64,000 nucleotides of DNA from Chryseobacterium oryctis. GTDB taxonomy: Bacteria; Bacteroidota; Bacteroidia; Flavobacteriales; Weeksellaceae. Under the pieces are notes generated by a model. The model was not told where the DNA came from, searched no databases, and saw only the letters and a list, made by a program, of their open reading frames with translations. The translations under genes and the position numbers were made by a program. The stretch's first letter is position 1. The number at the start of each line of letters is the position of its first letter. The DNA is taken from contig NZ_JAPDHV010000004.1 of assembly GCF_025971925.1 (NCBI RefSeq), forward strand, positions 248,001 through 312,000, written 5' to 3'. Positions 19,563 through 46,962 of the stretch are shown one piece after another.

Positions 19563-20774
19563 TTATGTATTATTATCACGAGCTACAAGTTTGCTTGTAT
19601 AAGTATAATAAATTCCACCAATTGATATAATAATGAGAGAAGAAATTATTAGCCAAAGTGTATTAAACCCATAATTTTGGGCAAGGAATGTTCCTAAAAA
19701 AGGAGATATGAATAATGCAACAGAGAAGGTTGCGCTAAATAATCCCATATATCCCCCAATATTTTTGCCTTCTGCTCTAATAGAAATAATTGTTGATAAA
19801 AAAGGATTTATCAGCACTCCTGAAACTGCTATGAGAGTGATTGAAATAAAGATAGAATATATGTCTGTAAAAAAAGCAAGAATAAAATAACCAGTAAATA
19901 ATAGAATTAGACCCAATATTACAACGTAGATTGTTTTAAGAGTTTTTATTAATATATTGACTAATGGCATTTCAATTATAAGGAGCAAAATTCCACAATA
20001 CCCAAAAATGACACCGATCTCAGCTTTAGAAATTTCTAAATTATTATAAAATAAAGGCAGAGAGCTAAATAGTTGCATAAGGCAAATTGTATAAATAGTA
20101 CAAAAAAAGATGAAAATAAGAAAGTATTTATCTTTATAAGGAGACTGAAAATTATGGGAATTTTGATTTTCTTTTTTTACGTTGATGTCTTTTCTATCCT
20201 TAAAGTAAAAATAGAGGATGATGCCAGAAATGAGGGATGTGAATGCATTAACATAAAAAATAAGACTGTATGATAATGAAGCAAGAATACCTCCTAAAGA
20301 AGGACCAATAAAAAAACCTAAATGCAATGCCATTCTGTTTAAAGAGAATGCTCTTGCTCTGTTTTCTGTTGAAGAATATCTTGTGATTGCAACAGAGTTT
20401 GCAGGTAAAAAAAACTCATTAATACAGCTTTGTATAAAAAATGCTATTGATAAAGAATAAATGTTCTTTATTTCAGGAATTATTATAAAACCGGGAATGC
20501 ATAGAAATAAACTTAGCATCTGTACTCTAAAATGTCCGATTTTATCTGTACATCTGCCTCCAAGGTACGCTCCTAAGATTGCTCCTAATCCATAGAAGCC
20601 TAAAATAATGCCTGTTTCTTCCAATGAAAAACCTAAATGATCTGCAAAATAAACGCCGAGGAAAGGTAAAACCATTGAACCGGAACGGTATATCAACATT
20701 ATCATGCACAGCATCCACGACTCTTTGGATAAGCCTTTGTAAGAATTTAAAAATGAAAAAAATAGATTATTCAT
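19563..20774 (-). CDS. MFS transporter, probable exporter of the peptide cluster
   Basis: A 403-aa major facilitator with about twelve hydrophobic segments. The loop between TM2 and TM3 carries the motif-A-like GGRCTDKIGHFRVQ near residue 72, and the TM4/TM5 region has SSTENRARAFSLNRMALHLG. Such DHA1-type carriers export small molecules by proton antiport. It is the last gene of the eight-gene minus-strand cluster, 47 bp after the acetyltransferase, so export of, or immunity to, the cluster product is likely (inference from context). No terminator is visible before the convergent HRDC gene. Confidence 0.88.
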   Translation of the reverse strand: MNNLFFSFLNSYKGLSKESWMLCMIMLIYRSGSMVLPFLGVYFADHLGFSLEETGIILGFYGLGAILGAYLGGRCTDKIGHFRVQMLSLFLCIPGFIIIPEIKNIYSLSIAFFIQSCINEFFLPANSVAITRYSSTENRARAFSLNRMALHLGFFIGPSLGGILASLSYSLIFYVNAFTSLISGIILYFYFKDRKDINVKKENQNSHNFQSPYKDKYFLIFIFFCTIYTICLMQLFSSLPLFYNNLEISKAEIGVIFGYCGILLLIIEMPLVNILIKTLKTIYVVILGLILLFTGYFILAFFTDIYSIFISITLIAVSGVLINPFLSTIISIRAEGKNIGGYMGLFSATFSVALFISPFLGTFLAQNYGFNTLWLIISSLIIISIGGIYYTYTSKLVARDNNT

Positions 20775-20821
20775 ATTTATTCTTAGTGTCTAAATTGTTT
20801 TTTTAGATTATCCAGCTAATC

Positions 20822-21328
20822 TTATTTGATTAACAAATAAAAATTGTGAAGATCATAAAATTGATTATTTTTATAAACTGCTTTTTTAGATATTCCTTCT
20901 TCAATAAAACCATTATTTTTTAAGGCCTTCATAGAGCCTATATTGTATTCAAAAACTCTGGCAAATATTCTGTTTACATCTAGATTTTTTATAGCATAAT
21001 CTATCATTTTTTTTATTGCAGAGCTTACTATTCTTTTTCCCCAATATTTTTCTCCGATCCAGAATCCAATTTCTATACTTTTTCTATAAACATCAGGCTG
21101 TTTCACAAAACTTATTACTCCTACAAAATGACTGTTGAATTCAATAGCAAAAGTAAGCTGTGGTTCTTCTTGTGCTACCATATTGATAAAGAATTTTGCA
21201 TCGTCAATTGTATATGGATGAGGGAAAATATCCCTCATGTTATTCCATATATTTTTGTTGTTTGCCAATTTGTACAATGTTTCTGTATCGTCGACAGATA
21301 ACTTTCTTAAGGTTATTGCGTTTTCCAT
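20822..21328 (-). CDS. GNAT N-acetyltransferase (RimJ/RimL type)
   Basis: A 168-aa protein with the full GNAT fold of the RimJ/RimL group: ITLRKLSVDDTETLYKLANN at the start, FVGVISF, EIGFWIGEKYWGKRIVSSAI for the acetyl-CoA loop region, then RIFARVFEYNIGSMKALKNNGF. Members acetylate N-terminal or side-chain amines of proteins, peptides or small molecules. It lies between the second synthetase-like gene (91 bp) and the MFS gene (47 bp), so it may acetylate the cluster product or provide self-protection. The substrate is not known. Confidence 0.87.
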   Translation of the reverse strand: MENAITLRKLSVDDTETLYKLANNKNIWNNMRDIFPHPYTIDDAKFFINMVAQEEPQLTFAIEFNSHFVGVISFVKQPDVYRKSIEIGFWIGEKYWGKRIVSSAIKKMIDYAIKNLDVNRIFARVFEYNIGSMKALKNNGFIEEGISKKAVYKNNQFYDLHNFYLLIK

Positions 21329-21419
21329 TTATAAAAAATTAATGATTAATAATCTTTTAAAACTATAAAATAAGTATTTAGTTTTTTGTTTTTGCCAGAC
21401 ATTGTTTTAGGCTTTTTCA

Positions 21420-22367
21420 TTATATGCTATAGATATTTAATGAGTTTTTAAGCGGTTCCAATGAAGATTTTAAAAGATCTTGTACAGAATCTTTTCCTTT
21501 GTCAAGTACATTCATCAGGTATTCATTGGTGAGACGGTTTTCTCTGAATGGACGTAATTCTTCCGATATAATATCAAAAAATCTCATTTTTTCTTCAATT
21601 GTTAAGGGGATGTTTTCCAGGTTTTTGGATAGGTCTTCTCTGTGTAAAGAATTGTACCATTCTTGTAGTACTCTTTTGTCATTTATAGACATTATTTTAG
21701 ATTCAAGATCTTCTAAATCTTCACTTAAGAAAACACAATTTTTTTGAATCATATATTTACCGTCTGTACCGTTGATATATCCAATTTTTGAAGGTAGATA
21801 TTTAGGAATATTGATGGAAATATTATTCCTTTTTTTGAGGTTTTCAGCTATCTCTTCCATGATGTATATATACCCGATAATCTCTTCACCTCCCTGAAAA
21901 TAATCGGCTTTGAGACTTAATGCCATAGCTGCTATACCAAGTTGTGGATAAAGCCATTCTGTAACAGAAGGGTAGTTGCTAAGACCAAGTTCTTTTCTTT
22001 GATAAGACTTTAATGATCCTAAAAATGAATTTTCATATAAGTGATTGCAGTATTCTACATCTATTACTGTGCTGTAATAAAGCATGTGTTCTAAAAATAA
22101 GTGCGCAATATCTGATGTTAGTACAATATTATTATTTTCCACGTCGAAACCAGAATTTATAAAATCCTGTACTACAAATAATGTCCTGTTCTGAATGTAT
22201 TCTCTTTCTTTAGGATACATGAAGTAAGCAAGAAGGTCGTCTAGCACTACAAATGTGTTATGATCATATTGAGATTCTACTAAAGATTTCATTGCTCCAA
22301 AATAATGACCTAAATGTCTTGGTCCTGTTACTGGATTGTGTGCACTGATTAAGATTTTTCTTTCCAT
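21420..22367 (-). CDS. TrpRS-like protein lacking KMSKS, copy 2
   Basis: A 315-aa class I aminoacyl-tRNA-synthetase-like protein closest in layout to tryptophanyl-tRNA synthetase. The HIGH signature is kept as HLGH at 18-21 (GPRHLGHYFGAM). The KMSKS position reads DGKYMIQKN (202-210), so the signature is gone. The segment aligning with the VPVGEDQ block reads FQGGEEIIG (157-165), and the indole-binding Asp of TrpRS appears to be Met148. The C-terminal region keeps a FLSED block and a helical end. It pairs with a paralogue at 24230-25204. Adenylation of another amino acid, tRNA-dependent peptide extension, or loss of catalysis are all possible. It is not the housekeeping trpS. Confidence 0.75.
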   Translation of the reverse strand: MERKILISAHNPVTGPRHLGHYFGAMKSLVESQYDHNTFVVLDDLLAYFMYPKEREYIQNRTLFVVQDFINSGFDVENNNIVLTSDIAHLFLEHMLYYSTVIDVEYCNHLYENSFLGSLKSYQRKELGLSNYPSVTEWLYPQLGIAAMALSLKADYFQGGEEIIGYIYIMEEIAENLKKRNNISINIPKYLPSKIGYINGTDGKYMIQKNCVFLSEDLEDLESKIMSINDKRVLQEWYNSLHREDLSKNLENIPLTIEEKMRFFDIISEELRPFRENRLTNEYLMNVLDKGKDSVQDLLKSSLEPLKNSLNIYSI

Positions 22368-22395
22368 TTTATTAATTTTTTAAGGTTTGGTTAAA

Positions 22396-22423
22396 TATAG
22401 AGACCAATAGATTGGTCTCTATA
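22396..22423 (-). terminator. Hairpin after the precursor genes, possible attenuator
   Basis: TATAGAGACCAAT (22396-22408) and ATTGGTCTCTATA (22411-22423) form a perfect 13-bp stem with a 2-nt centre, 33 bp after the last precursor stop on the minus strand. Only a short TTTAACC tract follows, so it may give partial termination or stabilise the upstream precursor message. Confidence 0.6.
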
Positions 22424-22455
22424 CATTATATTAAGGAATTACTGTTAGGTGAGGA

Positions 22456-22656
22456 TTATTCGCAGTCCTGTTTTATGTCACTGTCGTGAATAATGATATT
22501 TTCATCTACCATATTCATCATTCTCAACTTATCTCTAGTAATCTCCAGAGGAGTACTTAGCATAGGTTTTACATTCTCAAAAACCGGAGTAGCTTTACTA
22601 TCAAGGGATTTTACTTTCCCTTTGATCTCTTTGGTGTTTTCTGTTATTGTTTTCAT
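22456..22656 (-). CDS. Putative RiPP precursor peptide 1
   Basis: A 66-aa peptide starting at the ATG at 22656 (MKTITENTKEIKGKVKSLD), chosen over an ATG 51 bp upstream because the paralogue has the same start. It differs from the upstream twin only at positions 4, 5 and 62. There is one Cys (Cys65), no Trp and no Gly-Gly leader motif; the C-terminal part (NIIIHDSDIKQDCE) is acidic. Small size, duplication and position directly after a radical SAM gene with a fused recognition domain make it the likely substrate. Which part is leader and which is core cannot be told. Confidence 0.75.
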   Translation of the reverse strand: MKTITENTKEIKGKVKSLDSKATPVFENVKPMLSTPLEITRDKLRMMNMVDENIIIHDSDIKQDCE

Positions 22657-22675
22657 TTTAATAATATTTTGTGGT

Positions 22676-22876
22676 TTATTCACAATCCTGTTGTATGTCA
22701 CTATCATGAATGATGATATTTTCGTCTACCATATTCATCATTCTCAACTTATCTCTAGTAATCTCCAGAGGAGTACTTAGCATAGGTTTTACATTCTCAA
22801 AAACTGGAGTAGCTTTGCTATCAAGGGATTTTACTTTTCCTTTGATTTCTTTGGTGTTTTCTTTTAATGTTTTCAT
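22676..22876 (-). CDS. Putative RiPP precursor peptide 2
   Basis: A 66-aa peptide (MKTLKENTKEIKGK at the start, DSDIQQDCE at the end), 63 of 66 residues identical to the copy that follows 19 bp downstream. The whole 220-bp unit including the spacer is duplicated, so the duplication is recent or under gene conversion. Residues 22-45 (ATPVFENVKPMLSTPLEITR onward) are Pro-containing and identical in both. It begins 24 bp after the radical SAM stop codon. It has no signal peptide and no similarity that I recognise. The role as modified precursor is inferred from context. Confidence 0.75.
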   Translation of the reverse strand: MKTLKENTKEIKGKVKSLDSKATPVFENVKPMLSTPLEITRDKLRMMNMVDENIIIHDSDIQQDCE

Positions 22877-22900
22877 TTTAATAAAATTTGATAGTTAGAG

Positions 22901-24202
22901 TTATAGCAATTCCTTAATATTTACTGTTTTTCCAAAATAGTTGTCGCAGGTGGTTAGTTTTCTCCATTCATTCATTTTATCAGATTTTTGCCAGACTTTG
23001 ATTAAATCTTTTCCGATAATACTTCCTGAATTCCATTCATGATCATTTTCAACATCCACTCTCTTAAGTTTTACAGATACATAGCATTGTCCTTGAGGGG
23101 TTATTCTCATTAATCGCTCACCTGTTCTGGTTAATAAAGGCTGATCGTTGATAAGATTTCTGAAAGTATCTTCATTTACGTCGTTTACTATTTCCTGCCA
23201 TGCAGAATCAGCTGGTTTGATTACTTTGTCGTCTACAAGCTGTTTTAGCTGAAGGTTGGCTTCATAAAGCTCTTCATTATTGGGCATATCACTTTCTAAG
23301 TTAAGAGCTCTTCCTGCGATATAGAGTGGTGCAAAACTATATCCTAATGGTTCGTATTGAGAAATAAGTTTTCCAATATTATAGATATCATGTTTGTTGT
23401 GTTTGGTAAGTACTGTTCCTACAATAAAAGGAACTTTATGCTTGTGAAGTAGTTCCATCCCCTTTATTACTTTTAAGAAATTTCCTTTACCTCGATATTG
23501 TTCACAAATATCTTTGGTAGAGCCATCTAGTGTAGTCTGCAGGAAAACAAAGTTTTTCAGTTGACTTAAGTAGATGATGTCATTTTCGGTAGTAAGAGTA
23601 AGATCTGAACCAATAGAAACCATTAATCCTAAACTATCTGCATAAGTTACCATTTCCAGTAAGTCATTTCTTCTTGTAAAAGGGTCTCCACCTGTGAATC
23701 TTACATAAAAGACTCCGGAATCTGATATGTTTTTGATAATTGGAAGCCATTCTTCCACTGTAAGTTCTAAAGAAATATCAACTCTAGGATTACTGAAATA
23801 AGAACAGTAAGAACATTCTCTTGCGCATTTATTCGTGCTTTCTATTTCTACGCCAAGAGGAGAATAAAAATATTCGTCTGAAAAATCTTCATCAGGAACA
23901 TTTTCGAAGTAAAAAATAGGGCTTTCTCTTAATGTTTCTCCTTGGTATTCGTTACAAATATCTACTCTTTTAAGTAGATTTACGAAGTTTTCTATTTCTT
24001 CGTGTTGTACGTTTGATATGTCAAAATCTTCAGAAATTTTTTCATAAATTTCATATATACTTCGGGGAGTTTTTAGTGCCAGAATAATTTGGTATCCCAG
24101 TTTATTAAAGAATCGAACTGATTTTCTTTTGTTTATGAGTACAATACAGCCAAAGCTTTCTTTTCGTACTTTTAGTTGTGGGGTTAAAATGAATTTTTCC
24201 AT
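22901..24202 (-). CDS. Radical SAM enzyme with N-terminal PqqD-like domain
   Basis: A 433-aa protein. Residues about 5-85 look like a PqqD-type RiPP recognition element (TPQLKVRKES start, FNKLGYQIILAL, then a winged-helix tail ending LLKRVDIC). The radical SAM core follows, with the [4Fe-4S] motif C126-x3-C130-x2-C133 (NKCARECSYC) and the FTGGDPF glycine-rich SAM-binding stretch. The C-terminal region has only scattered Cys (373 and 419), so a SPASM domain, if present, is degenerate. Enzymes of this design modify ribosomal peptides. It lies 24 bp upstream of the twin peptide genes, its probable substrates. The reaction cannot be predicted. Confidence 0.88.
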   Translation of the reverse strand: MEKFILTPQLKVRKESFGCIVLINKRKSVRFFNKLGYQIILALKTPRSIYEIYEKISEDFDISNVQHEEIENFVNLLKRVDICNEYQGETLRESPIFYFENVPDEDFSDEYFYSPLGVEIESTNKCARECSYCSYFSNPRVDISLELTVEEWLPIIKNISDSGVFYVRFTGGDPFTRRNDLLEMVTYADSLGLMVSIGSDLTLTTENDIIYLSQLKNFVFLQTTLDGSTKDICEQYRGKGNFLKVIKGMELLHKHKVPFIVGTVLTKHNKHDIYNIGKLISQYEPLGYSFAPLYIAGRALNLESDMPNNEELYEANLQLKQLVDDKVIKPADSAWQEIVNDVNEDTFRNLINDQPLLTRTGERLMRITPQGQCYVSVKLKRVDVENDHEWNSGSIIGKDLIKVWQKSDKMNEWRKLTTCDNYFGKTVNIKELL

Positions 24203-24229
24203 ATTTTTTTTGTTTTTGTGGTTACTTAT

Positions 24230-25204
24230 CTAGGTGTGTTTTAGGGATGAGATTTTGTAGGCTTCTCTTTTTAAAGTTGTAATATGGTTTGTAAGCTGAT
24301 TTTGTATATTTTCATAATTATTGATAATGATTTCGTCTAAATGACTTATTTCCAATTGGTTTTCTCTGAAAGGTTTTAGCTCATTTACCAAAATATCTTT
24401 AAGGAGATTTTTGAGGTAGGTGAAATCGTTGTCTTCTGAATAAAATTCAAAAACATTTTTATGACCTGCGGAAGTAAGCCAGTCTTTGATTACTCTTTTA
24501 TCTTCTATGTTGTCTATTTTTTTGATTAAAGAATCTTCATCTTCTGATAAAAAAATACTATTGTGCTGAAACATGTATTCTCCATCCAATCCTAATACAT
24601 ATCCGTTTCTTGCAGGTTCGTACATTGGAGGATAGTTGTAATCGTTATAAACTTTTTTAATATTGTTTTTTAGATGATTCATAATATAGGTGTAGCCTAT
24701 GATTTCTTCACCTCCCTGAAATAGTTCTGCTTCTAAGGCAAACGAAATGGCAGGTATACCCAATTGAGGATAAAGTACTTCAAAAACAGAAGGGTATAAA
24801 TTGAGTCCCAATTCTTCTCGTTGATATGATTTTAAACCTCCCAGAAAAGAATTTTCATATAAATAATTACAAAATTTAAAATCTATAAAATCTGCATAGA
24901 AAAGTATAAGCTCCATGAGATAAGGCGTAAAAGAACTTGTTAAAATAACATGGCTTTTTTCGATGTCGTATCCACAGTTGATGAAGTCTTGTAGTACGAA
25001 ATAAGTTCTGTTTTTTATTGCATGAGCTTCATTAGGATTCATTAATATAGCTAATACATCATCTATGATCAGGTAAGATTCATGTTTATCCTGATTATTA
25101 ACAAAATCTTTCATTGAACCCCAGTAATGTCCTAAATTTCGTGGTCCAAAAATGGGATTTTGAACACATACTTGTTTCAGTTTATAGGTAATATTATCTT
25201 CCAT
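24230..25204 (-). CDS. TrpRS-like protein lacking KMSKS, copy 1
   Basis: A 324-aa paralogue of the protein at 21420-22367, using the ATG at 25204, which overlaps the ATPase stop by 11 bp; an ATG at 25270 would lie deep inside the ATPase gene. The HIGH position reads NLGH (23-26), so the first His is lost. The KMSKS position reads LGLDGEYMFQHN. The aligned indole-binding Asp is replaced by Ile (GIPAISFAL), and FQGGEEIIG is shared with the other copy. The two therefore form a distinct subfamily. Possible roles are amino-acid activation for peptide tailoring or peptide binding without catalysis; family knowledge gives no direct answer. Confidence 0.75.
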   Translation of the reverse strand: MEDNITYKLKQVCVQNPIFGPRNLGHYWGSMKDFVNNQDKHESYLIIDDVLAILMNPNEAHAIKNRTYFVLQDFINCGYDIEKSHVILTSSFTPYLMELILFYADFIDFKFCNYLYENSFLGGLKSYQREELGLNLYPSVFEVLYPQLGIPAISFALEAELFQGGEEIIGYTYIMNHLKNNIKKVYNDYNYPPMYEPARNGYVLGLDGEYMFQHNSIFLSEDEDSLIKKIDNIEDKRVIKDWLTSAGHKNVFEFYSEDNDFTYLKNLLKDILVNELKPFRENQLEISHLDEIIINNYENIQNQLTNHITTLKREAYKISSLKHT

Positions 25205-26330
25205 AGTTATTGTTGTAAAATGAATTAATAAAATCTTTGGTGAGTTCTGTTTTATTTCCCTGAAGATCATTCATAATAGAAGGAACAATGACCTGTAAAA
25301 TTTCTGTGGATTTAGATTCATAACCTTGTTTATGCATAGCGTTTGCTTCTTTTATATAAGATCTAACTAATCTTAATTTCTTTTTTTGCTCATCAAAATT
25401 CCTTTTGTTTGTTTCAAAGTTTTCGATTATTTTTTGTTTTGTTTTTTTTATAGAATTAATATCAATATTATCGTAGGTTTGAAAGATGTTTTTGAATAAT
25501 GGATCCTCAATTAAGTTGGTATAAAAATCTTCTTCATATTCTAATTCTATTAATTCATCAGAATATTTGAATTCATTATTCATTACTAAACTCGAACATG
25601 CTAAATCTATAAGATCAATAGCTTTATCGGGAAAGTAAGAATCGGGATGGTTTTTAGTTAGGTTTATTGCTTCAAGAACAGCTTCGTCATTAATTAAAAC
25701 TTTATAAAATTGTTCATATCTGTATTTCAGTTTTTTAATGATTAAGTAAGTTATATAGTCTTTGGGCTCATCAATTGTTATCTTATGGAATCTTCTATCT
25801 AATGCTTTGTCCAGAACAATTGAATTGTTGTATTCCATAAAAGTAGTTGCTCCAATTAACTGAATGTCTCCTCGTGCGATATAGGGTTTAAGAAGATTAA
25901 CGAAATCTACAGAACCTTCAGAAGCTCCTGCTTTCATAATTGTATGTAACTCGTCTATGAAAAGGATTACATTACTGTTGCATATTTCTTTTAATAATTG
26001 CTCAGCTCTTTCCTCAAATTCGCCTCTGTAACTTGTTCCGGCAAGCATAGTAGACATTTTGATACCGTATATTTTTTTGTCTTTTAATGCATCGGGTACT
26101 TCATTATCAACAATTAGTTGAGCAATAGACTCAATGATTGCTGTTTTGCCGACACCTGGAAATCCGAGTAGTATGACATTGTTTTTTATCCTTCTGCATA
26201 GAGTCTCAATTATTTTTTTTATCTCAAGATTTCTATAGAAAACAGGATCGTATAAATTCTGCTTGGCATTTTCATTAAAATTAACTGCATACTTTTCAAT
26301 GGTTGAAAGATTGGGTCTTATTTTTTCCAT
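25194..26330 (-). CDS. ClpB/ClpC D1-like single AAA+ ATPase
   Basis: A 378-aa protein that corresponds to only the first AAA+ ring of ClpA/ClpB/ClpC. Walker A is GFPGVGKT (56-63), Walker B ILFIDE (122-127), the pore loop is SYRGEFEER with Tyr101, and the arginine finger is in LDRRF (177-181). The N-terminal Clp-N domain and the second ring are absent. A helical, Lys-rich tail (about residues 270-360) may be a remnant of the ClpB middle domain. It may thread or remodel the peptide or the modifying enzymes. It is first in the minus-strand cluster, with 400 bp of noncoding DNA upstream, so it probably sits next to the promoter. Confidence 0.85.
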   Translation of the reverse strand: MEKIRPNLSTIEKYAVNFNENAKQNLYDPVFYRNLEIKKIIETLCRRIKNNVILLGFPGVGKTAIIESIAQLIVDNEVPDALKDKKIYGIKMSTMLAGTSYRGEFEERAEQLLKEICNSNVILFIDELHTIMKAGASEGSVDFVNLLKPYIARGDIQLIGATTFMEYNNSIVLDKALDRRFHKITIDEPKDYITYLIIKKLKYRYEQFYKVLINDEAVLEAINLTKNHPDSYFPDKAIDLIDLACSSLVMNNEFKYSDELIELEYEEDFYTNLIEDPLFKNIFQTYDNIDINSIKKTKQKIIENFETNKRNFDEQKKKLRLVRSYIKEANAMHKQGYESKSTEILQVIVPSIMNDLQGNKTELTKDFINSFYNNNYGR

Positions 26331-26730
26331 TTAGATAAGTATTAAATAGTTATAGTAAGGTGGATAGATGAGAAACTAGCTTAATATTGTTTTGTATTGT
26401 AAGGTTAATGATATTTTTAAAATAATATCAAAATGATGTATTTTATCCGAAATTCGGAATAAAAATGAAATATTTTTCATGATATTTAGTTATTTAGTTT
26501 ATACAAGTATACAATTATTTTTAATACAAATAATAAAAAAAATGTATTAATTCTTGTTAAAGTGAATTGTTCAATATTTATTATATTGGTTTACAGTATT
26601 TTAAATAATAAATTTTATCACTTAATGATGATGTAATTTTAGACTATCAGTTTTGTCTGTAAAAAAGTCCTGCCATTTCACTATTTTTGCATTATATATT
26701 ACATTTTAATCATCATTTATCAATTATAAA
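26331..26730. other. 400-bp divergent promoter region between peptide cluster and hisS
   Basis: Very AT-rich, with no gene. On the minus strand TATACTTG (26511 to 26504) is one base off the TAnnTTTG promoter box and could serve the peptide cluster, leaving a leader of about 170 bases. On the plus strand TATTTTTG at 26682-26689 is a good box for hisS. No regulator-binding symmetry stands out. Confidence 0.5.
26682..26689 (+). promoter_or_regulatory. Candidate -7 box of hisS
   Basis: TATTTTTG matches TAnnTTTG and lies 41 bp before the hisS ATG. A TTG at 26653-26655 is 26 bp away, slightly too far for the usual spacing. Confidence 0.4.
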
Positions 26731-34481: not shown

Positions 34482-35324
34482 TTAACTGAAAACTTCAAAT
34501 TTTTCTCCATCAAAACTTGCAAAAACCATAGTTGGATAAGAGTCTTGATGGTACATATTTCCGTTTTTATCAATAGCAATAGCACCTGCGAAACCATCAA
34601 TGGTTTTTAATTCGTCAAAAGTTTTAGTAAAGGCGTTTTCCAATGACATTCCGTCTGTAACTCTTGTCACGATTTTTGTGGCAGTGGCATTACTTACAAT
34701 ATCTTCACCTACGCCTGTACAACTCACGGCACAGAATGAATTGGCATAATTTCCTGCAACCGTTGCAGAATCAGAAATTCTTCCGGGAATTTCAAATCCT
34801 TTTCCTCCTGTAGAAGTGGCAACTGCTAATTTTCCGTTTTTATCAATAGCAACACAGCCAACAGTTCCTTTTCCTCCGTTATTCAGTTTAGCTTCATATT
34901 CTTTTCTTCTTTGTGTAATTTCAGTCGAAAAATTTTCAAAACCATGTTCTGTAGCATAAATTTTTGCTCCGTTTCCTCCTAAAACTCTGTCATCTTCTTT
35001 CATCAGTTCTTTAGCAACAAAAATCGGGTTTTTTACATCCTGAATATTAATAACTCCGCTTAGTTTTTGAGTTTCGCCATCCATAATTGCTGCGCTCATT
35101 CTTATCACACCGTCACTTTGAATCTGAGACCCGATTCCTGCATTGTAAAGCTCGTCATCCTCCAGTAAAGAAACAGCATAAGCAACCGTATCAAAAGCGG
35201 AATTATTTTGCAAGTATTCAAAGGCTTTTTGAGCTATACTTTTCAATGAATTTTGTTTGGCAACTTTTACTTCATTGCTCTGGTCGCTTTCTGAGAAAAA
35301 ACCACCGTGTATTATTAATTTCAT
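34482..35324 (-). CDS. iaaA: Isoaspartyl peptidase / plant-type L-asparaginase
   Basis: A 280-aa Ntn-hydrolase. The nucleophile is Thr154 in GKGTVGCVAID, where the precursor cleaves itself into two chains; the substrate loop is seen as NAGIGSQ and VAGNYAN. It hydrolyses beta-aspartyl (isoaspartyl) dipeptides and asparagine. In cyanophycin breakdown the beta-Asp-Arg dipeptides released by cyanophycinase are split by this enzyme. It lies 53 bp downstream of cphB on the same strand, which fits a degradation operon. Confidence 0.93.
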   Translation of the reverse strand: MKLIIHGGFFSESDQSNEVKVAKQNSLKSIAQKAFEYLQNNSAFDTVAYAVSLLEDDELYNAGIGSQIQSDGVIRMSAAIMDGETQKLSGVINIQDVKNPIFVAKELMKEDDRVLGGNGAKIYATEHGFENFSTEITQRRKEYEAKLNNGGKGTVGCVAIDKNGKLAVATSTGGKGFEIPGRISDSATVAGNYANSFCAVSCTGVGEDIVSNATATKIVTRVTDGMSLENAFTKTFDELKTIDGFAGAIAIDKNGNMYHQDSYPTMVFASFDGEKFEVFS

Positions 35325-35377
35325 GTTTTAAATTTGAGATTTAAATATATAAAAAAAGTGAAGAAAAACTTCACTTA

Positions 35378-36277
35378 TTATTTATCTTGAGGTACTGGGT
35401 TAAACTGAGAATTTTCAATCGTCATTGTTTTCGTAGTTAAATCATAATGGTCGTTCATCGACATGACATGAACCGTTAAATTATCAATGGAAATAGGCTC
35501 TCCAAGGTTGATATTTGTAAGGTTGGTATCCTTAATAAACCTTCCGTCAACTAAAATTACAAGTCCTGAACCAATGGCAGTCATTACATCATTATAGATG
35601 AAAAGTCCGGTGTCTTCTCCCAAACCGATTCCTAAAGTTCTCGGATTATTTACTACAGCCTGAAAAAGACGCCCAATCCTTCCTCTTTGTACAAAGTGGG
35701 TATCAATGATTACGTTATCGATTAAACCTAAACCTTGTGTTGTTTTGATTTCTCCTTTCAGTAGAGCTTCTGAACTACTTCCCTGATAAATCATATTTTC
35801 AGAGGCTGCAGCAGCACCTGCAGAAGTTCCGGAATAAATAAAATCTTCTTCCTGATATTTTTGTAAGATGATATCATGAAATTTTGTTCCTCCAAGAATA
35901 GAAGTTAATCTTAATTGGTCGCCTCCTGTAAACATTACAACATCTGCAGCATTGGCTCTTTCTGCAATTTCTTCAGAATTTGCTTCCTCACGGTTGTGAA
36001 TATCAAGTATGTTCACATTTTTGGCTCCTAAAAACTCAAAAGCTTTTTTGTATTCAGCTCCTACAATTTGAGGAATTTGAGATGCGGTAGTTACCACTTC
36101 AATTATTGAATCTTCTTTGTGCTTCGATTCATTAATGATTTTTCTTAAGATGCCTCTTTCAAAAAAATTAAGATTCTTTTCTATATTTTGGTCGAAATCT
36201 GTTTCTGTAAAACTTCCTTTGTTTACAGCTCCTCCGATAACGATTAATTTTCCAACGGGTTTCATCATAGTGTGCAA
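35378..36277 (-). CDS. cphB: Cyanophycinase
   Basis: A 299-aa serine peptidase of family S51. The nucleophile is Ser152 in GTSAGA, with GGAVNKG near the start and VVMFTGGDQ before the active site. It cleaves the cyanophycin backbone to beta-Asp-Arg dipeptides in the cytoplasm. The ATG at 36277 overlaps a TAnnTTTG-like box (36282 to 36275), so translation may start at one of the Met codons a few residues later (36268 or 36265, MKPVGKL). It is divergent from cphA and precedes iaaA. Confidence 0.93.
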   Translation of the reverse strand: MHTMMKPVGKLIVIGGAVNKGSFTETDFDQNIEKNLNFFERGILRKIINESKHKEDSIIEVVTTASQIPQIVGAEYKKAFEFLGAKNVNILDIHNREEANSEEIAERANAADVVMFTGGDQLRLTSILGGTKFHDIILQKYQEEDFIYSGTSAGAAAASENMIYQGSSSEALLKGEIKTTQGLGLIDNVIIDTHFVQRGRIGRLFQAVVNNPRTLGIGLGEDTGLFIYNDVMTAIGSGLVILVDGRFIKDTNLTNINLGEPISIDNLTVHVMSMNDHYDLTTKTMTIENSQFNPVPQDK

Positions 36278-36396
36278 ATTTAAAAAATAAATAACATTTG
36301 GCGAAATTCATGCCATATTTTAATTGATTTTGAGGGTTTTAGGATTGTTGATTGATTTTGAAGTTTTTTTGATAATTCTTTAAATGAGATATCGTT

Positions 36397-36422
36397 TTGT
36401 TTAGACTTTTACATTATCTTTG
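36397..36422 (+). promoter_or_regulatory. Candidate promoter of cphA
   Basis: TTG at 36397-36399 and TATCTTTG at 36415-36422, spacing 15 bp, which is slightly shorter than usual. The box lies 45 bp before the cphA start codon. Confidence 0.45.
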
Positions 36423-36467
36423 ATTATAAGTGAAGTTATAGTTAACGATTAAACATGAAGAAAAATT

Positions 36468-39095
36468 ATGAAAATTGAAAAGATACAAGCGTTGAGAGGT
36501 CCAAATATTTGGAGTATAAGAAGAAAGAAGCTGATACAGATGAGATTAGATCTCGAAGAACAGGAGAGTTTTCCTACTAATAAAATAGAAGGCTTTAGGG
36601 AAAGAATAGAAAAACTATTACCGTCTTTAATTAGTCACAGATGTTCTGAAGGAGTAGAAGGTGGTTTTTTTCATCGTGTGGAAACCGGAACATGGATGGG
36701 GCATGTTATAGAGCATATTGCGTTAGAAATCCAGACTTTAGCAGGAATGGATGTGGGGTTTGGCAGAACTCGTGAGACGAAAACTCCAGGAGTTTATAAT
36801 GTTGTATTTAATTATATTGAAGAAAATGCAGGAATTTATGCAGCTGAGGAAGCGGTAAAAATAGCTCAGGCTTTGATTGATAATAAAGAATATGATATTA
36901 ACGCATGTATTCAAAGATTAAAAGAAATAAGAGAGCGTGTTCGTTTAGGACCTTCAACGGGAAGTATTGTGGAAGAAGCGGTTTCGAGAAAAATTCCCTG
37001 GATTCGTTTGGGTACAAATTCTTTGGTTCAGCTTGGTTATGGTGTTAATCAGCAAAGATTTCAGGCTACAATTACAGGAAAAACAAGTTCAATTGCTGTT
37101 GATATTGCATGTAATAAAGAATTAACTAAAAGAATGCTTCATGATGCAGCAGTACCTGTTCCAATAGGTGATTTGATTGTTGATGAAGAAGATTTAGAAC
37201 GAGTAATCAGAAAAATAGGATATCCGATTGTATTAAAACCTTTGGATGGAAATCATGGTAAAGGTTCTTCAATTAATGTAAATGATTGGGAAACGGCTAA
37301 AATTGGGCTGGAACATGCTCAGAAATATTCCCGAAAAGTAATTGTCGAAAAATTTATTACTGGATATGATTTTAGAGTTTTAGTCATTAATAACAAAATG
37401 GTTGCAGCAGCAAGAAGAGTTCCTGCTCATGTTGTAGGTGATGGTGAACTTAATCTTCAGCAACTTATAGATAAAGAAAATAAAGATCCTAGAAGAGGAT
37501 ATGGACATGAAAATGTTTTAACTGAGATTGAAGTTGATAAAGACACAACCGAACTTCTTGAGAAACTAGATTATACCTTAGAAACGATTCCGCATAAAGG
37601 AGAGGTGGTTTATTTAAAGTCAACTGCAAACCTTTCTACAGGAGGAACTTCTATTGATGTGACGGATATGGTTCATCCTGAAAATATCACAATGGCTGAA
37701 AGAATTTCCAAAATAATAGGATTAGATGTTTGTGGAATTGATATTATGGCTGAAAATCTTACTCAACCGTTAAAAGAAAGTGAGGGAGCTATTATTGAAG
37801 TAAATGCGGCTCCGGGATTCAGAATGCACCTTGCTCCAAGTGAAGGACTTCCGAGAAATGTTGCTGCACCTGTAGTAGATATGCTTTATCCGCAAGGTAA
37901 ACCTTTTACCATTCCGATTATTGCGGTTACAGGAACAAACGGAAAAACAACGACAACAAGACTGATTTCTCATATTGTTAAAAACAATGGATATAGAGTA
38001 GGTTTCACCACGTCTGACGGGATTTATATTCAAAATACAATGTTATCTAAAGGAGACACAACAGGCCCTCTTTCTGCTGAATTTATCTTGAAAGATCCTA
38101 CTGTTGAATTTGCTGTACTGGAAACAGCCAGAGGTGGAATTTTACGTTCAGGATTAGGTTTTTCTCAATGTGATATCGGTGTTTTGACAAATATTAAGGA
38201 AGATCATTTAGGTCTGAATGATATCCATAATCTGAAAGATTTAACCAGAGTAAAGAGAGTAGTTTTAGATAGCGTAAAAAAGAATGGTTGGAGTGTAATG
38301 AATGCTGATGATGAATATTCAATGAAGATTGTTAATGATTTAGATTGTAATGTAGCCATTTTTAGTATGGATGAGAATAATCCCTACATCAAAAAATTTG
38401 CAAAAGAGGGGAGAATTACATGCGTTTATGAGGAAGGTTTTGTTACCATAAAAAAAGGTGATTGGAAGATTAGAATAGGTAAGGCAAAAGATTTCCCGAT
38501 TACGATGGAAGCTAAAGCTAAATTTATGATTGAAAATGTCTTGGCTGCAAGTTTGGCAAGCTATCTTTATGGTTTTGAAATCGAGCATATTTCAAATTCC
38601 TTGAGAACTTTTCTTCCAAGTGCACAACTTACTCCGGGAAGACTTAATATTTTCAAATTCAAGAGCTTTAAAGTTTTAATCGACTTTGCTCACAATCCTT
38701 CAGGATACGAAGCCATTGAAGATTATCTTAAAAATATAGAATCTACGAAGAAAATAGGTATTATTTCTGGAGTTGGGGATAGAAGAGATGAGGATATCAG
38801 AGAATGTGGTAAAATTGCAGGAAGGATGTTTGACCATATTATTATCAGAAATGAAAAACATCTTCGCGGAAGAACGGAAGACGAAATTAACGGATTGATT
38901 ATTGAAGGAATGCAATCTTCAGGAAGAGACATTAGTTACGAAATTATACCAAAAGAAATTGAAGCTTTAAAACATGCTATGGGAATGGCAGAAGAGGGTA
39001 CATTTATTACAGCTTTAAGTGACGTAATTTCTAATGCAATTGATTTGGTTCAGGAATATCAGGCTAGAGAATTGCTCGAAGATGATAAAGTTTAA
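36468..39095 (+). CDS. cphA: Cyanophycin synthetase
   Basis: An 875-aa protein of full CphA length. An N-terminal domain (about 1-160) precedes an ATP-grasp domain (220-475, with GYPIVLKPLDGNHGKGSS near residue 245) that adds Asp to the chain. A Mur-ligase-like domain (485-875, P-loop TGTNGKTTTTR near 487) adds Arg to the Asp side chain. The product is a branched Asp-Arg polymer used as nitrogen store. The gene is divergent from cphB-iaaA and ends at a strong shared terminator, convergent with an operon of amide-bond-forming enzymes. Confidence 0.95.
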   Translation: MKIEKIQALRGPNIWSIRRKKLIQMRLDLEEQESFPTNKIEGFRERIEKLLPSLISHRCSEGVEGGFFHRVETGTWMGHVIEHIALEIQTLAGMDVGFGRTRETKTPGVYNVVFNYIEENAGIYAAEEAVKIAQALIDNKEYDINACIQRLKEIRERVRLGPSTGSIVEEAVSRKIPWIRLGTNSLVQLGYGVNQQRFQATITGKTSSIAVDIACNKELTKRMLHDAAVPVPIGDLIVDEEDLERVIRKIGYPIVLKPLDGNHGKGSSINVNDWETAKIGLEHAQKYSRKVIVEKFITGYDFRVLVINNKMVAAARRVPAHVVGDGELNLQQLIDKENKDPRRGYGHENVLTEIEVDKDTTELLEKLDYTLETIPHKGEVVYLKSTANLSTGGTSIDVTDMVHPENITMAERISKIIGLDVCGIDIMAENLTQPLKESEGAIIEVNAAPGFRMHLAPSEGLPRNVAAPVVDMLYPQGKPFTIPIIAVTGTNGKTTTTRLISHIVKNNGYRVGFTTSDGIYIQNTMLSKGDTTGPLSAEFILKDPTVEFAVLETARGGILRSGLGFSQCDIGVLTNIKEDHLGLNDIHNLKDLTRVKRVVLDSVKKNGWSVMNADDEYSMKIVNDLDCNVAIFSMDENNPYIKKFAKEGRITCVYEEGFVTIKKGDWKIRIGKAKDFPITMEAKAKFMIENVLAASLASYLYGFEIEHISNSLRTFLPSAQLTPGRLNIFKFKSFKVLIDFAHNPSGYEAIEDYLKNIESTKKIGIISGVGDRRDEDIRECGKIAGRMFDHIIIRNEKHLRGRTEDEINGLIIEGMQSSGRDISYEIIPKEIEALKHAMGMAEEGTFITALSDVISNAIDLVQEYQARELLEDDKV

Positions 39096-39158: not shown

Positions 39159-40343
39159 TTATTTTTCTCCAAAAAAAGCATTGGAACTGCCAATCCAGAT
39201 TGCGTCTTTTTTATTAAAATCTACATTTACCATTGCTGCTTTCGTCATTCGTGCTAAATTTTCCAATAAAATAGGACGCTCATCATTTTCTTTCCAGATA
39301 TAAAGCAGTCGAATTTCTGCTTTTGAAAACTCACCATTAATATCTTCAAAAACAGATTCATAATTTACTTTTCTTTGTAAAATATAGTTTTCTTTATCCT
39401 CTATAGAATTGATGATTTCTTTTGTCGGATTTAAGTTTACTCCGCTTCCTGCAAAAGAGAATAAAGGTTTTAAAACAAAATTTTCAAGATTCTCTGTTTC
39501 CGGAAACTCATGAAGGAAATAGCTTTTCGGAACGTATTGATGTTTTAATAATGGTAAAAGAAATTTCGAGATTTTGAAAAACCAATTAGGATGTGTCACC
39601 CAAGTTACATCAACATCTTCACGAAAATCAAATTCAGTCTTTAAATCTGGAATCCTGTTTAATTCATCAAAAATTACACGATTGTATATTCTTTTAATTT
39701 CTATAAGCTTTCCACTGTTTTCGTAGAAAAGCTTTCGTCCTTCTTTTTTTAGTTTCGTAAGACAAACTGTTTTTATTCCTAATAATTTTTCAGTAAAAAC
39801 GAAATCTATTGCTGTTTTTTGCTTTTCAGGATAAATCTCAAGCAGAATTACATTTTCAGGGTTTTCGTTGCCTAGAATAAGTTCTTTTAAAGAATCTTTA
39901 AACTCATTATCGGGCATCGGGTTTTTAATTTCGGAAATAAAAGGGTAAACCCCACAAAATGTTTGTTCAAAAACTTTTTGAAAAGCATATAATGAAGGAA
40001 ATGCTTGTAACTCAATAAGCTGAGGCTCAATTTCTCCGTTTTCATTTTTGCAGATTCCAAAATCAATAGTAAAAAAATGAGGTTGTTTTGTATCATTCGG
40101 AACTTTGCAGCTTTCAGGAATAGCTTTTTCTAATGTTCCTTTTGGTAAAGCTTTGATTTGGGAAATAATACTTTCACTTGCATCAATCAGTTTGTTTTTG
40201 AACTCATTGGTAAGAAAAATTGGACTTTCAGAGATTCTGAATCCAGGCTCTAAGCCACTTTTCTGTTTTAGAGACTGTTTAAATTGTTCATATTTATCCT
40301 GAGAGAATTCTTGGTTAAATTGTTTTCTGTATTTTGAAATCAT
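39159..40343 (-). CDS. Uncharacterised ATP-grasp-like ligase
   Basis: A 394-aa protein. The clearest motif is the ATP-grasp glycine-rich loop in FVLKPLFSFAGSGV near residue 290, with acidic metal-binding candidates in KAEIRLLYIW and ILLENLARMTKA. The N-terminal half contains FFTIDFGICKNENGEIEPQL and LIELQAFPSLY, resembling glutathionylspermidine-synthase-type enzymes. It probably forms an amide or peptide bond using ATP. It is the last member of the minus-strand ligase run, 78 bp after the amidotransferase gene, and ends at the shared terminator. Confidence 0.75.
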   Translation of the reverse strand: MISKYRKQFNQEFSQDKYEQFKQSLKQKSGLEPGFRISESPIFLTNEFKNKLIDASESIISQIKALPKGTLEKAIPESCKVPNDTKQPHFFTIDFGICKNENGEIEPQLIELQAFPSLYAFQKVFEQTFCGVYPFISEIKNPMPDNEFKDSLKELILGNENPENVILLEIYPEKQKTAIDFVFTEKLLGIKTVCLTKLKKEGRKLFYENSGKLIEIKRIYNRVIFDELNRIPDLKTEFDFREDVDVTWVTHPNWFFKISKFLLPLLKHQYVPKSYFLHEFPETENLENFVLKPLFSFAGSGVNLNPTKEIINSIEDKENYILQRKVNYESVFEDINGEFSKAEIRLLYIWKENDERPILLENLARMTKAAMVNVDFNKKDAIWIGSSNAFFGEK

Positions 40344-40421
40344 ATTCTCTTTCTTTGTGATTTTAAAAAATCGAGCAGTTTTGCCCGATTTTATTATTGT
40401 TAGTTTTATCTAATGTTTCAT

Positions 40422-41255
40422 TTAAGCCATTACTTCAGAGCCTTTCAGAATGTTTTTTTTTGCAAACTGTAGAAATCTGGGTAGAATCTGTGCCTGAGTC
40501 AGGATAATTTTATCTTCATCATCCATTCTGTCGATAGTTTCCAGATATTTTTCCATTCCGAAATTTTCAATCATGGCTTCTTTGTTTTTGTCATCTTTAA
40601 GGTTTTCCATCATGCTTTCAGGGTTCGCTTCTGGATGAAACTGAGTTCCAAAAATTTCTTCTGAAAAACGAATTGCCATTACAGCTCTTTCCAGATTGAT
40701 ATGAGGACGGAATTTCTCAATTGCCACGATCTTCATTCCTAATTCTTCAAATCGATCATAATTGGGTTCTATAAATTGGAATGCTCTAGAATCAACAGCA
40801 TAAAAAGGATCTGGAAGATTTTTGAATAAAAATTCTTGTTCTCCTTCCTCTGTTTTGTGAACAGGCATTACCCCAAATGAATAAGATTTTCTTTTGCAGA
40901 TATTTCCTAATTTCCAATGAATACTTGCCAATTGGAATGAATGACAGATTAAAAATAAATATTTTTTATTCTCACTATATTTATTATGCTCAAAAACTGA
41001 ATCTAAAAAATCTGAAAATTTATCTTCCCATTCAAAACCTTCTCTATGCGGATTTCCGGGACCTCCTGATGAAATAAAAATGTCAAAATCTTCAATATTT
41101 GGGATTTCGTTTTTATATCTTACATCGAAAGTTTCAATAATTACATTTTCTTCAGATTTCAGTTGAAAAGCCTCTGAAATTTCTTTAATATTTCTAAAAC
41201 CTTGATTTACATGGTTGTTATTCATGTCTAACAAAGCAATGCGAATATCGCTCAT
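40422..41255 (-). CDS. Class I glutamine amidotransferase-like protein
   Basis: A 277-aa protein. The glutaminase triad region is present: the nucleophile Cys in LICHSFQLAS (about residue 103) and His in FGTQFHPEANPE (about residue 208), with the oxyanion region SSGGPGNP near residue 63. It could supply ammonia to a neighbouring ligase or act as a gamma-glutamyl hydrolase. It lies 34 bp after the GCS2-type ligase and is in the same transcript. No dedicated synthase domain is fused, so the acceptor is unknown. Confidence 0.85.
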   Translation of the reverse strand: MSDIRIALLDMNNNHVNQGFRNIKEISEAFQLKSEENVIIETFDVRYKNEIPNIEDFDIFISSGGPGNPHREGFEWEDKFSDFLDSVFEHNKYSENKKYLFLICHSFQLASIHWKLGNICKRKSYSFGVMPVHKTEEGEQEFLFKNLPDPFYAVDSRAFQFIEPNYDRFEELGMKIVAIEKFRPHINLERAVMAIRFSEEIFGTQFHPEANPESMMENLKDDKNKEAMIENFGMEKYLETIDRMDDEDKIILTQAQILPRFLQFAKKNILKGSEVMA

Positions 41256-41289
41256 ATTACTTTACTTTTTTGCAAAGTTATCAAAAATA

Positions 41290-42408
41290 TTATGAATCAG
41301 ATTCGCCATACATTATGCCGTATTCTGTTTCAGATATCATATAATCAACAACTTTCGTTAAATCACCAGTTTCTTTAAAGATTTGAAGCTGTCTGTCAGC
41401 TCCTGTTCCGTTTTCTAATATTTTCCATGCATATTCTACCTCCGATCTGCATCCCAACTCATCCACAACATCATCAATAAACTCAAGAAGTTCTTTCAAT
41501 AACTCAGGATAAGGTACGGATTCTTCTTTACCAAAATCGATAAGGTGAGCTTCAATTCCACTTTTAGAGGCTCGCCATTTATTCTCATTTAATAGTAACC
41601 TTCTATAACTCCTGAAACTCAAATTTTGCTGATGCAGTTTATAAATTTTAGCGACTAAAGCCTGCATGATTGCAGCTAAGCAAACCGTTTCATCAAGCCT
41701 TAAAGGCATATCGCAAATTCTAAACTCAATAGTCGGATAGAAAGGATGTACCCTCAAATCCCACCATATTTTTTTAGCATTGTCAATTGTTCCGGTCTTT
41801 ACTAAAAGGTCAACATAACTGTCAAATTCAGCCAAAGAATTGAAATAACTAGGAATACCTGTTCTCGGAAATTTTACGAAAATCTCCTGTCTGTAAGACT
41901 TAAAGCCTGTATTTCTGCCTATCCAAAAAGGTGAGTTGGTAGATAAGGCGTAAACGTGAGGAAGGAAGTATCGCATTACATTTTGAATTCTCACACCTTC
42001 TTCACGATTCGGAATTCCGATATGTACATGAAGTCCGAAAATAAGATTTCCTCGAGCTACATCTCCCATATCATCTACAATTTTTATGTAGCGTTCACCA
42101 TTAGTAATGGTGTTGTGTTCCCAATTTGAGAAAGGGTGAGTTCCTCCTCCTGAAACGCGAAGACCCTGCTCATGAGCTGTTTTGATGAGGTGTCTTCTCA
42201 GGTTTGTTAATTCTTGCCTTGCTTCCTGAATATTCTGACAGATTCCAGTCTCCATTTCAATCATGGATTCATGCATTTCGTGTTTTAAATTTTCACTTAA
42301 AACAGCTTTTCCTCCTTCAATAATTTTCGAAACATGAGAGACTAAATCTCTGCTCTCAACATCAATAATTTGATATTCTTCTTCGATTCCGATGGTAAAT
42401 TGATGCAT
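41290..42408 (-). CDS. Carboxylate-amine ligase, GCS2/YbdK family
   Basis: A 372-aa member of the glutamate-cysteine-ligase type 2 family, with FTIGIEEEYQIID at the start, VSGGGTHPFSNW near residue 95, GLHVHIGIPNRE near 125 and PTIEFRICDMPL near 220, all parts of the ATP/metal site. E. coli YbdK can join Glu and Cys weakly, but most members have unknown substrates. Its gene lies between an ATP-grasp gene (32 bp) and an amidotransferase gene (34 bp) and is probably cotranscribed. It likely joins two amino-acid or peptide substrates. Confidence 0.9.
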   Translation of the reverse strand: MHQFTIGIEEEYQIIDVESRDLVSHVSKIIEGGKAVLSENLKHEMHESMIEMETGICQNIQEARQELTNLRRHLIKTAHEQGLRVSGGGTHPFSNWEHNTITNGERYIKIVDDMGDVARGNLIFGLHVHIGIPNREEGVRIQNVMRYFLPHVYALSTNSPFWIGRNTGFKSYRQEIFVKFPRTGIPSYFNSLAEFDSYVDLLVKTGTIDNAKKIWWDLRVHPFYPTIEFRICDMPLRLDETVCLAAIMQALVAKIYKLHQQNLSFRSYRRLLLNENKWRASKSGIEAHLIDFGKEESVPYPELLKELLEFIDDVVDELGCRSEVEYAWKILENGTGADRQLQIFKETGDLTKVVDYMISETEYGIMYGESDS

Positions 42409-42440
42409 TTCTTTTCGTGCTTTTTAATTTTTATGTTTTT

Positions 42441-43394: not shown

Positions 43395-43446
43395 AATTGT
43401 ATTTTTTAATGTTGTATGTTAATATTTTAGAGTAAGATTTAAAAAT

Positions 43447-44160: not shown

Positions 44161-44190
44161 TTTTTTCTTATTTGAGTTTTTAATTGATTA

Positions 44191-45402: not shown

Positions 45403-45431
45403 ATAATGTTTTTTAGATTTTAATGAGTTTT

Positions 45432-45439
45432 CAAAAATA
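45432..45439 (-). promoter_or_regulatory. Candidate -7 box of the ligase operon
   Basis: On the minus strand TATTTTTG matches TAnnTTTG, 30 bp before the ATP-grasp start at 45402. No TTG is seen at the usual distance. Confidence 0.3.
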
Positions 45440-45542
45440 AAAGCAAATTTTTATTAATTATTTAATGTTAAAATTAAAAATAAGTTGCGTTTTTGAAAAT
45501 CTTGTATCAATTATACAGAGAATTTTTGTAATAAACTAATTT

Positions 45543-46958: not shown

Positions 46959-46962
46959 GAGT

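Follow-up and report, generated by a model that had tools for sequence, protein, structure and literature searches.

What does a bacterium make with two relatives of tryptophanyl-tRNA synthetase (TrpRS) that lack the KMSKS motif and are encoded beside a small ribosomal peptide? The question is raised by eight minus-strand genes of Chryseobacterium oryctis, which run from 26330 down to 19563 in a window of 64,000 nucleotides, the whole stretch of DNA analysed (NZ_JAPDHV010000004.1, positions 248,001–312,000; coordinates below are relative to the window). Their order is Clp-D1 ATPase, TrpRS-like A, radical S-adenosylmethionine (SAM) enzyme, peptide 1, peptide 2, TrpRS-like B, GNAT acetyltransferase and MFS transporter. 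The answer proposed here, with a probability of about one half, is that the locus may be a self-contained scaffold-peptide pathway, akin to those of ribosomally synthesized and post-translationally modified peptides (RiPPs), the small product of which would be exported alone or passed to a non-ribosomal peptide synthetase (NRPS). This proposal is made because the core families co-occur and keep the same core order at unrelated sites, because the constraint on the peptide is far above that on the enzymes and the altered TrpRS-like site is conserved, and because in two relatives an NRPS gene abuts the Clp start and ends in a condensation domain.

Composition and distribution of the gene unit

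A sequence-only reading had described eight genes here as a candidate peptide pathway, and all eight lie where it put them, on the minus strand, including the tandem twin peptides. The features are as follows.

25194–26330, minus strand: stand-alone ClpB/ClpA D1-type AAA+ ATPase without D2, 378 residues (NCBIfam ClpB)
24230–25204, minus strand: TrpRS-like protein A, 324 residues (Pfam tRNA-synt_1b, NCBIfam trpS below cut-off, motifs)
22901–24202, minus strand: radical SAM enzyme, 433 residues, with a PqqD-like N-terminus and without an auxiliary-cluster cysteine set (Radical_SAM)
22676–22876, minus strand: peptide 1, 66 residues, proposed scaffold or precursor (conservation in five species)
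22456–22656, minus strand: peptide 2, 66 residues, tandem copy (95% identity to peptide 1)
22396–22423, no strand: perfect 13-bp inverted repeat (hairpin) between peptide 2 and TrpRS-like B (sequence)
21420–22367, minus strand: TrpRS-like protein B, 315 residues (NCBIfam trpS below cut-off, predicted fold)
20822–21328, minus strand: RimL-type GNAT acetyltransferase, 168 residues (Acetyltransf_3)
19563–20774, minus strand: MFS exporter, 403 residues (MFS_1)

The unit spans some 7 kb between well-defined borders; the intergenic gaps are, in transcription order, −11, 27, 24, 19, 88, 91 and 47 nt. The gene for TrpRS-like A stands, but its start, formerly placed at 25270, is most likely at 25204, because the ATG at this position overlaps with the stop of the ATPase gene and the matching place is where the relatives start. 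These relatives are two further Chryseobacterium units (L005 and L006), C. defluvii (L007) and Flavobacterium sp. LHD-85 (L019). The junction between the ATPase and TrpRS-like A is an 11-nt overlap in L005, a 17-nt overlap in C. defluvii and a 1-nt gap in LHD-85. Peptide 2 occupies 22456–22656; the 83-residue open reading frame (ORF) given for this place in the ORF list starts within peptide 1.

The family-wide search covered 296 genomes with four queries (cut-offs: radical SAM enzyme, E ≤ 1e-20; TrpRS-like B, which picks up TrpRS-like A too, E ≤ 1e-25; peptide, E ≤ 0.001; ATPase, E ≤ 1e-120). The radical SAM enzyme, TrpRS-like A, TrpRS-like B, Clp-D1 and the peptide occur in the identical four genomes (G000, G082, G205 and G279) and in no others, with A and B both present in each. 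This co-occurrence exceeds chance. The genes form one unit, the five core genes standing together wherever any of them is found. The sequence-only reading had named, as a finding that would speak against it, ATPase and synthetase-like genes that mostly lack radical SAM or peptide partners; in these 296 genomes this is not the case. Of the eight genes that it listed, those of the five core families travel together. GNAT and MFS, although both are present in the window, fall away as core parts, with orthologues in four and three of the five units. The GNAT protein (Acetyltransf_3, E 1.1e-24 in Pfam) has orthologues in the L005 and L006 units (74–77% identity) and in LHD-85 (38%), and none was found in the C. 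defluvii unit. The MFS protein (MFS_1, E 9.3e-47 in Pfam) is confined to the three Chryseobacterium units without an NRPS, the window's among them, at 65–69% identity.

Beyond the family, an A plus B profile run over 395 genomes of the phylum gave two matches, both within the four known genomes. A scan of the contigs of 84,980 species, which used just two short peptide patterns that diverged relatives would escape, matched 58 stretches, of which five encode a relative, in four loci: those of three Chryseobacterium genomes of the family set and of Flavobacterium sp. LHD-85, the sole addition. The known carriers thus total five species, and the cassette is rare. Neither the TrpRS-like alignment nor that of the radical SAM enzyme brought up a relative in IMG/VR. 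Plasmids (query, the LHD-85 copy) and phages (query, the window copy) gave no match to the peptide. The TrpRS-like profile found none in a set of 299 genomes from a single genus, which is probably Flavobacterium and includes no positive control. Plasmid-borne trpS genes were rejected as relatives of the cassette: 25 plasmid records matched, all below 60% identity, and no radical SAM gene is annotated near trpS in the three records inspected, the PLSDB gene tables being incomplete. As a separate observation, many Staphylococcus epidermidis plasmids carry a second trpS (23 of the 25 matching records are from Staphylococcus), unrelated to the cassette.

Core gene order is identical in the five species. 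In the window, the unit is bordered by an HRDC-domain gene on one side and by hisS on the other. In all 19 other genomes of the genus that were examined (20 in total), ssb, the HRDC gene and hisS are consecutive and the unit is absent there. The HRDC–hisS gap is 120–147 nt in 17 of the 19; the remaining two have gaps of 436 and 780 nt. The unit is therefore an insertion between the HRDC gene and hisS. A promoter-like block of the type AATTCC...TATTTTTGCA lies directly upstream of hisS (window 26331–26730; L031–L049) and, read by eye, most of the 19 empty sites retain it, as does the window in part; the insertion thus left the hisS promoter in place. L005 and L006 carry the eight genes in other surroundings: one unit adjoins a LysE gene and a helicase gene, the other secreted-protein genes. 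The occurrence of the same eight genes at three unrelated Chryseobacterium sites defines the extent of the unit. The GC content of the cassette (30.4%) equals that of its flanks (30.4 and 29.8%), so composition shows no sign of recent import.

Varied chromosomal insertion sites and rarity would also fit mobile defence genes, and the unit might then serve in stress or anti-phage defence and not in biosynthesis. In PADLOC, with six of the eight proteins scanned, the radical SAM enzyme matches pVip (E 6e-10) and the ATPase matches IetA (E 4e-9), both weakly. These matches are at the level of any radical SAM or AAA+ proteins and reflect shared core domains only, and genes for an NRPS, a phosphopantetheinyl transferase and transporters adjoin the cassette in relatives. 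A defence module is thus very improbable and was rejected.

The TrpRS-like pair and its enzyme partners

The two TrpRS-like proteins are distant from the TrpRS sequences compared. TrpRS-like A matches Pfam tRNA-synt_1b (E 5.9e-6) and reaches 43.6 bits on NCBIfam trpS (both computed on a 346-residue ORF), and TrpRS-like B reaches 66.4 bits, against a cut-off of 176.75; the genome's own TrpRS scores 274.3 bits. A and B are 41–47% identical to each other (window B shows 45–46% identity to the A proteins), and either is 18–25% identical to the real TrpRS sequences compared. All ten TrpRS-like sequences keep a HIGH-like motif, GPR[HN]LGHY (GPRNLGHY in window A, GPRHLGHY in window B). KMSKS is kept by the genome's own TrpRS and absent from all ten, which have Y-M-[IF]-Q-[KH]-N in its position (YMFQHN in window A, YMIQKN in window B). 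AAD has become AA or PA without Asp and G-x-D-Q has become GGEE; the two alignments stand one column apart, and the Asp of AAD and the Gln of GxDQ, which we take to be tryptophan-recognition residues in TrpRS, are lost in both. The genome's own TrpRS retains the tryptophan-pocket positions. Since the altered motif is common to both paralogues, it argues for a changed, selected activity and not for decay.

The predicted model of TrpRS-like B (predicted local distance difference test, pLDDT, 82.1; predicted template modelling score 0.82) has the TrpRS fold. It matches 1d2r_A with a Foldseek E of 3.0e-12 and, best of all, 7elt with a VIA-align Z of 25.6 (root-mean-square deviation 3.3 over 294 residues, 18% identity). 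The sole stretch with pLDDT below 50, residues 199–209, falls exactly at the place of KMSKS. The tree recovers A as a clade (100/100) and separates A plus B from four TrpRS (100/100), but B forms a single clade in only 23% of bootstrap trees. Known TrpRS are homodimers, and on this ground an A:B heterodimer is likely.

Another explanation for the pair is self-resistance: the operon would make a TrpRS inhibitor, A and B would be resistant copies, and GNAT and MFS would add further immunity. Producers of microcin C and of indolmycin are precedents for such a layout, and immunity typically relies on parts such as extra aminoacyl-tRNA synthetase (aaRS) genes, a RimL-type GNAT and an MFS exporter. 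According to the accessible part of the source (PMC6331615), the IleRS copy of the SB-203208 cluster, SbzA, was itself first sought as a resistance gene. Self-resistance is nevertheless improbable, as KMSKS is missing and the tryptophan pocket changed where the genome's own TrpRS keeps both, as A and B fall far below the trpS cut-off, and as resistance has no need for two diverged copies that are always together. An extra TrpRS for resistance was rejected on the loss of KMSKS and of the tryptophan-pocket residues.

The radical SAM enzyme (Pfam Radical_SAM, E 2.1e-17) has the CxxxCxxC motif C126/C130/C133 noticed in the sequence-only reading, and it is invariant in all five relatives. The only further cysteines common to the five are the equivalents of C19, C83, C233 and C373; downstream of the motif the shared ones are thus those of C233 and C373 only, the window protein having C419 as well. 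With so few shared cysteines, an auxiliary cluster of SPASM type is not expected; a weak SPASM match (E 0.0036) occurs in one of the five members. The PqqD-like N-terminus that had been read from the sequence gives a match, but below threshold (E 0.014; 16.2 bits, where Pfam requires 23.4), and such a sub-threshold match occurs in four of the five members. The best NCBIfam match of the enzyme is ScmE, at 112.8 bits against a cut-off of 400.

The ATPase, matched by Pfam AAA and AAA_lid_9 and by NCBIfam ClpB (288 bits, model positions 154–518 of 853), corresponds to the D1 half of ClpB/ClpA, as its earlier label of D1-type Clp ATPase had it. All five relatives keep Walker A, Walker B, the pore-loop sequence SYRGEFE and the DKALDRRF stretch, and for this reason the protein is probably an active peptide-threading ring that works without the second ring of ClpA/ClpB.

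The peptide as a candidate scaffold

The C-terminal 44 residues of the peptide have 40 invariant columns among eight full copies from five species, although 34 of the 44 codons vary. Pairs of copies differ by 7–24 synonymous against 0–3 non-synonymous codon changes. Synonymous divergence (dS) is saturated and so incomputable for many pairs; the claim of selection therefore rests on these codon-difference counts, and the binomial comparison of peptide codons assumes independent sites. Peptides 1 and 2 are identical at 188 of 201 nt. Between window peptide 2 and the LHD-85 peptide, 42 of the 44 C-terminal residues are identical, compared with 63% identity for the radical SAM enzymes and 67% for TrpRS-like B. 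The N-terminal ~20 residues vary in sequence and length. Judged by this codon pattern, the peptides are real, translated and under protein-level selection. They have no Pfam or NCBIfam match. A compact hairpin is predicted at the equivalent place in four of the five species (window, L005, L006 and L007), LHD-85 having a longer form, and its stem shows paired changes in C. defluvii; placed after the last peptide gene, it is likely a transcript stabiliser or attenuator.

The two units with NRPS genes extend the picture. In C. defluvii, the order is NRPS, Clp-D1, A, radical SAM enzyme, peptide, B, a fatty-acid-hydroxylase family gene, GNAT and an ABC transporter, followed by another NRPS gene, cut off by the contig end. 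The LHD-85 unit begins with NRPS, Clp-D1, A, GNAT, radical SAM enzyme, peptide and B and continues with hydroxylase, GNAT, ABC transporter, NRPS and phosphopantetheinyl transferase. The first NRPS gene (L007:2846–7579; L019:805–5634) extends 14 nt past the Clp start in C. defluvii, whereas in LHD-85 it stops 16 nt short of that start. Its product has the Pfam domain order TubC, condensation, adenylation, peptidyl carrier protein, condensation. No adenylation or carrier domain follows the last condensation domain, which reads NHLIFDG/NHIIFDG against HHIISDG/HHIVSDG in the first. An acceptor supplied in trans, for instance the cassette product, would explain this ending. The window genome contains no condensation domain; the cassette can therefore work without an NRPS, with GNAT and MFS.

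An ordinary RiPP pathway would read the same locus differently: the product would be the C-terminal part of the peptide itself, which would act as a signal or antibacterial peptide after cross-linking by the radical SAM enzyme and export through the MFS protein, and the TrpRS-like and Clp proteins would be helpers in folding or leader binding. A peptide beside a radical SAM enzyme with a PqqD-like N-terminus and a transporter is a classical RiPP layout, and the nearest NCBIfam models of the enzyme (ScmE, WgkB, PqqE and SkfB) are peptide maturases, all far below their cut-offs. In most RiPP families the core varies more than the leader. Here the putative core is near-constant in five species and the N-terminal part varies; the adjacent NRPS genes of two species point to a small building block; and an ordinary RiPP would not explain why there are two TrpRS-like enzymes that share a single altered and conserved active site. 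These points make an ordinary RiPP doubtful, although it is the most serious of the alternatives.

In the scaffold-peptide pathway proposed instead, the 66-residue peptide would be a carrier, its variable N-terminal ~20 residues serving as a handle and its invariant C-terminal region binding the enzymes and bearing the reaction site. A and B, probably as a heterodimer, would no longer charge tRNA with tryptophan and would transfer an acyl or aminoacyl group onto the scaffold; a charged tRNA would be the donor, or the reaction would pass through an adenylate of the peptide C-terminus. The radical SAM enzyme would then modify the scaffold-bound unit, and the Clp-D1 ring would pull the peptide off the enzymes, allowing the carrier to turn over. 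The product may be a small building block or warhead that resembles an amino acid; three species would acetylate it and export it through MFS, and in two the NRPS condensation domain would take it up. We infer the order of the steps, the substrate of A and B and the release step. In its most specific form, which is offered tentatively and at clearly lower odds than the pathway as such, the proposal is a new ribosomal-scaffold class in which a TrpRS-fold heterodimer would load or activate the unit, a cluster-poor radical SAM enzyme would modify it and a D1-only Clp would recycle the scaffold, with the product going to an exporter or to a terminal NRPS condensation domain.

Several points weigh against this reading. 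The pathway is proposed here on the basis of genes, sequence comparison and a predicted fold. No peptidase family is among the Pfam and NCBIfam matches listed for the eight cassette proteins, a host peptidase encoded elsewhere being possible, and no loading enzyme of LanB type is obvious for the peptide. The N-terminal domain of the radical SAM enzyme that resembles a RiPP recognition element appears as a sub-threshold match alone, and the structure model of this enzyme, built on a five-row alignment, has a mean pLDDT of 43.7 and was not used. The NRPS link comes from two genomes, and the narrow patterns of the 84,980-species scan set a further limit.

Relation to known systems and significance

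The nearest logic is that of the pearlins, the products of pathways with peptide aminoacyl-tRNA ligases (PEARLs) such as those of 3-thiaglutamate, 3-thiahomoleucine and ammosamide, in which a short ribosomal peptide is a reusable carrier. As described in the accessible part of PMC9303977, the unit loaded in these pathways can be the substrate of a radical SAM enzyme, and the known pearlin scaffolds need a peptidase for release. PEARLs are LanB-like, whereas the cassette has two TrpRS-fold proteins and a Clp-D1 ATPase instead. No lantibiotic dehydratase family is found among the listed Pfam matches (E ≤ 1) of the eight proteins or among the best 25 NCBIfam matches per protein; a canonical pearlin was rejected, no LanB-type protein being among the matches listed.

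Class I aaRS relatives are present in other natural-product clusters, and SbzA resembles the cassette proteins in this respect. In the portion of PMC6331615 consulted, SbzA of the SB-203208 cluster moves an aminoacyl group from a charged tRNA to a non-tRNA acceptor; it is IleRS-like, has a small-molecule acceptor and retains both HIGH and KMSKS in slightly modified form. The cassette proteins differ from it in being TrpRS-like and paired, in having lost KMSKS and in having a peptide gene adjacent. Cyclodipeptide synthases derive from the Rossmann fold of TyrRS/TrpRS type and use charged tRNA, as the partial text of PMC12945691 has it. The TrpRS-like proteins, compared with them, keep the HIGH-like motif, the C-terminal helical domain and full-length alignment to TrpRS, and have no Pfam match besides tRNA-synt_1b and an insignificant Latarcin, hence none to a cyclodipeptide synthase family. 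Neither SbzA nor the cyclodipeptide synthases are paired with a ribosomal peptide, as far as the excerpts of PMC6331615 and PMC12945691 extend.

The other components show likenesses of their own. SynChlorMet ScmE and PqqE-type maturases are the best NCBIfam likeness of the radical SAM core, which stays far below the ScmE cut-off and, unlike them, lacks auxiliary-cluster cysteines. With ClpB and ClpA the cassette ATPase has in common the D1 AAA+ module and its pore loop, but it consists of D1 only, with no D2. The sna cluster, in which a PEARL occurs together with NRPS and polyketide synthase genes, places a tRNA-dependent ligase beside NRPS machinery; no ribosomal scaffold with a radical SAM enzyme and an aaRS-like pair is described for it in the accessible part of PMC11212132.

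Elsewhere in the window, at 34482–39095, genes for Asparaginase_2 and Peptidase_S51 adjoin one whose product combines cyanophycin-synthase N-terminal, ATP-grasp and Mur-ligase domains, in what looks like a cyanophycin make-and-break locus from its domains. A minus-strand gene run at 39159–48084 encodes, among others, an esterase, an M17 aminopeptidase and a protein like the GCS2 glutamate-cysteine ligases; of seven proteins scanned (the ORF at 40422–41255 being left out), four have no Pfam match at 1e-12.

The broad kind to which the cassette belongs, that of RiPPs and scaffold peptides, is known, and there is a real chance of a new class. The sequence-only reading knew of no described class with this combination, and none was found in the literature searched, most subscription papers lying outside the search; the main text of a 2025 paper on RiPP recognition elements mentions no tRNA synthetase, ClpA or Chryseobacterium. 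If the scaffold-peptide reading is true, a class I tRNA-synthetase fold would have been recruited, as an obligate pair, to act on a ribosomal peptide, a role so far filled by LanB-type ligases according to the parts consulted of PMC12945691 and PMC9303977. A Clp-type motor would gain a role in the biosynthesis of peptide natural products. A portable cassette would then join ribosomal-scaffold and non-ribosomal assembly lines, and would feed an unusual building block into NRPS products.

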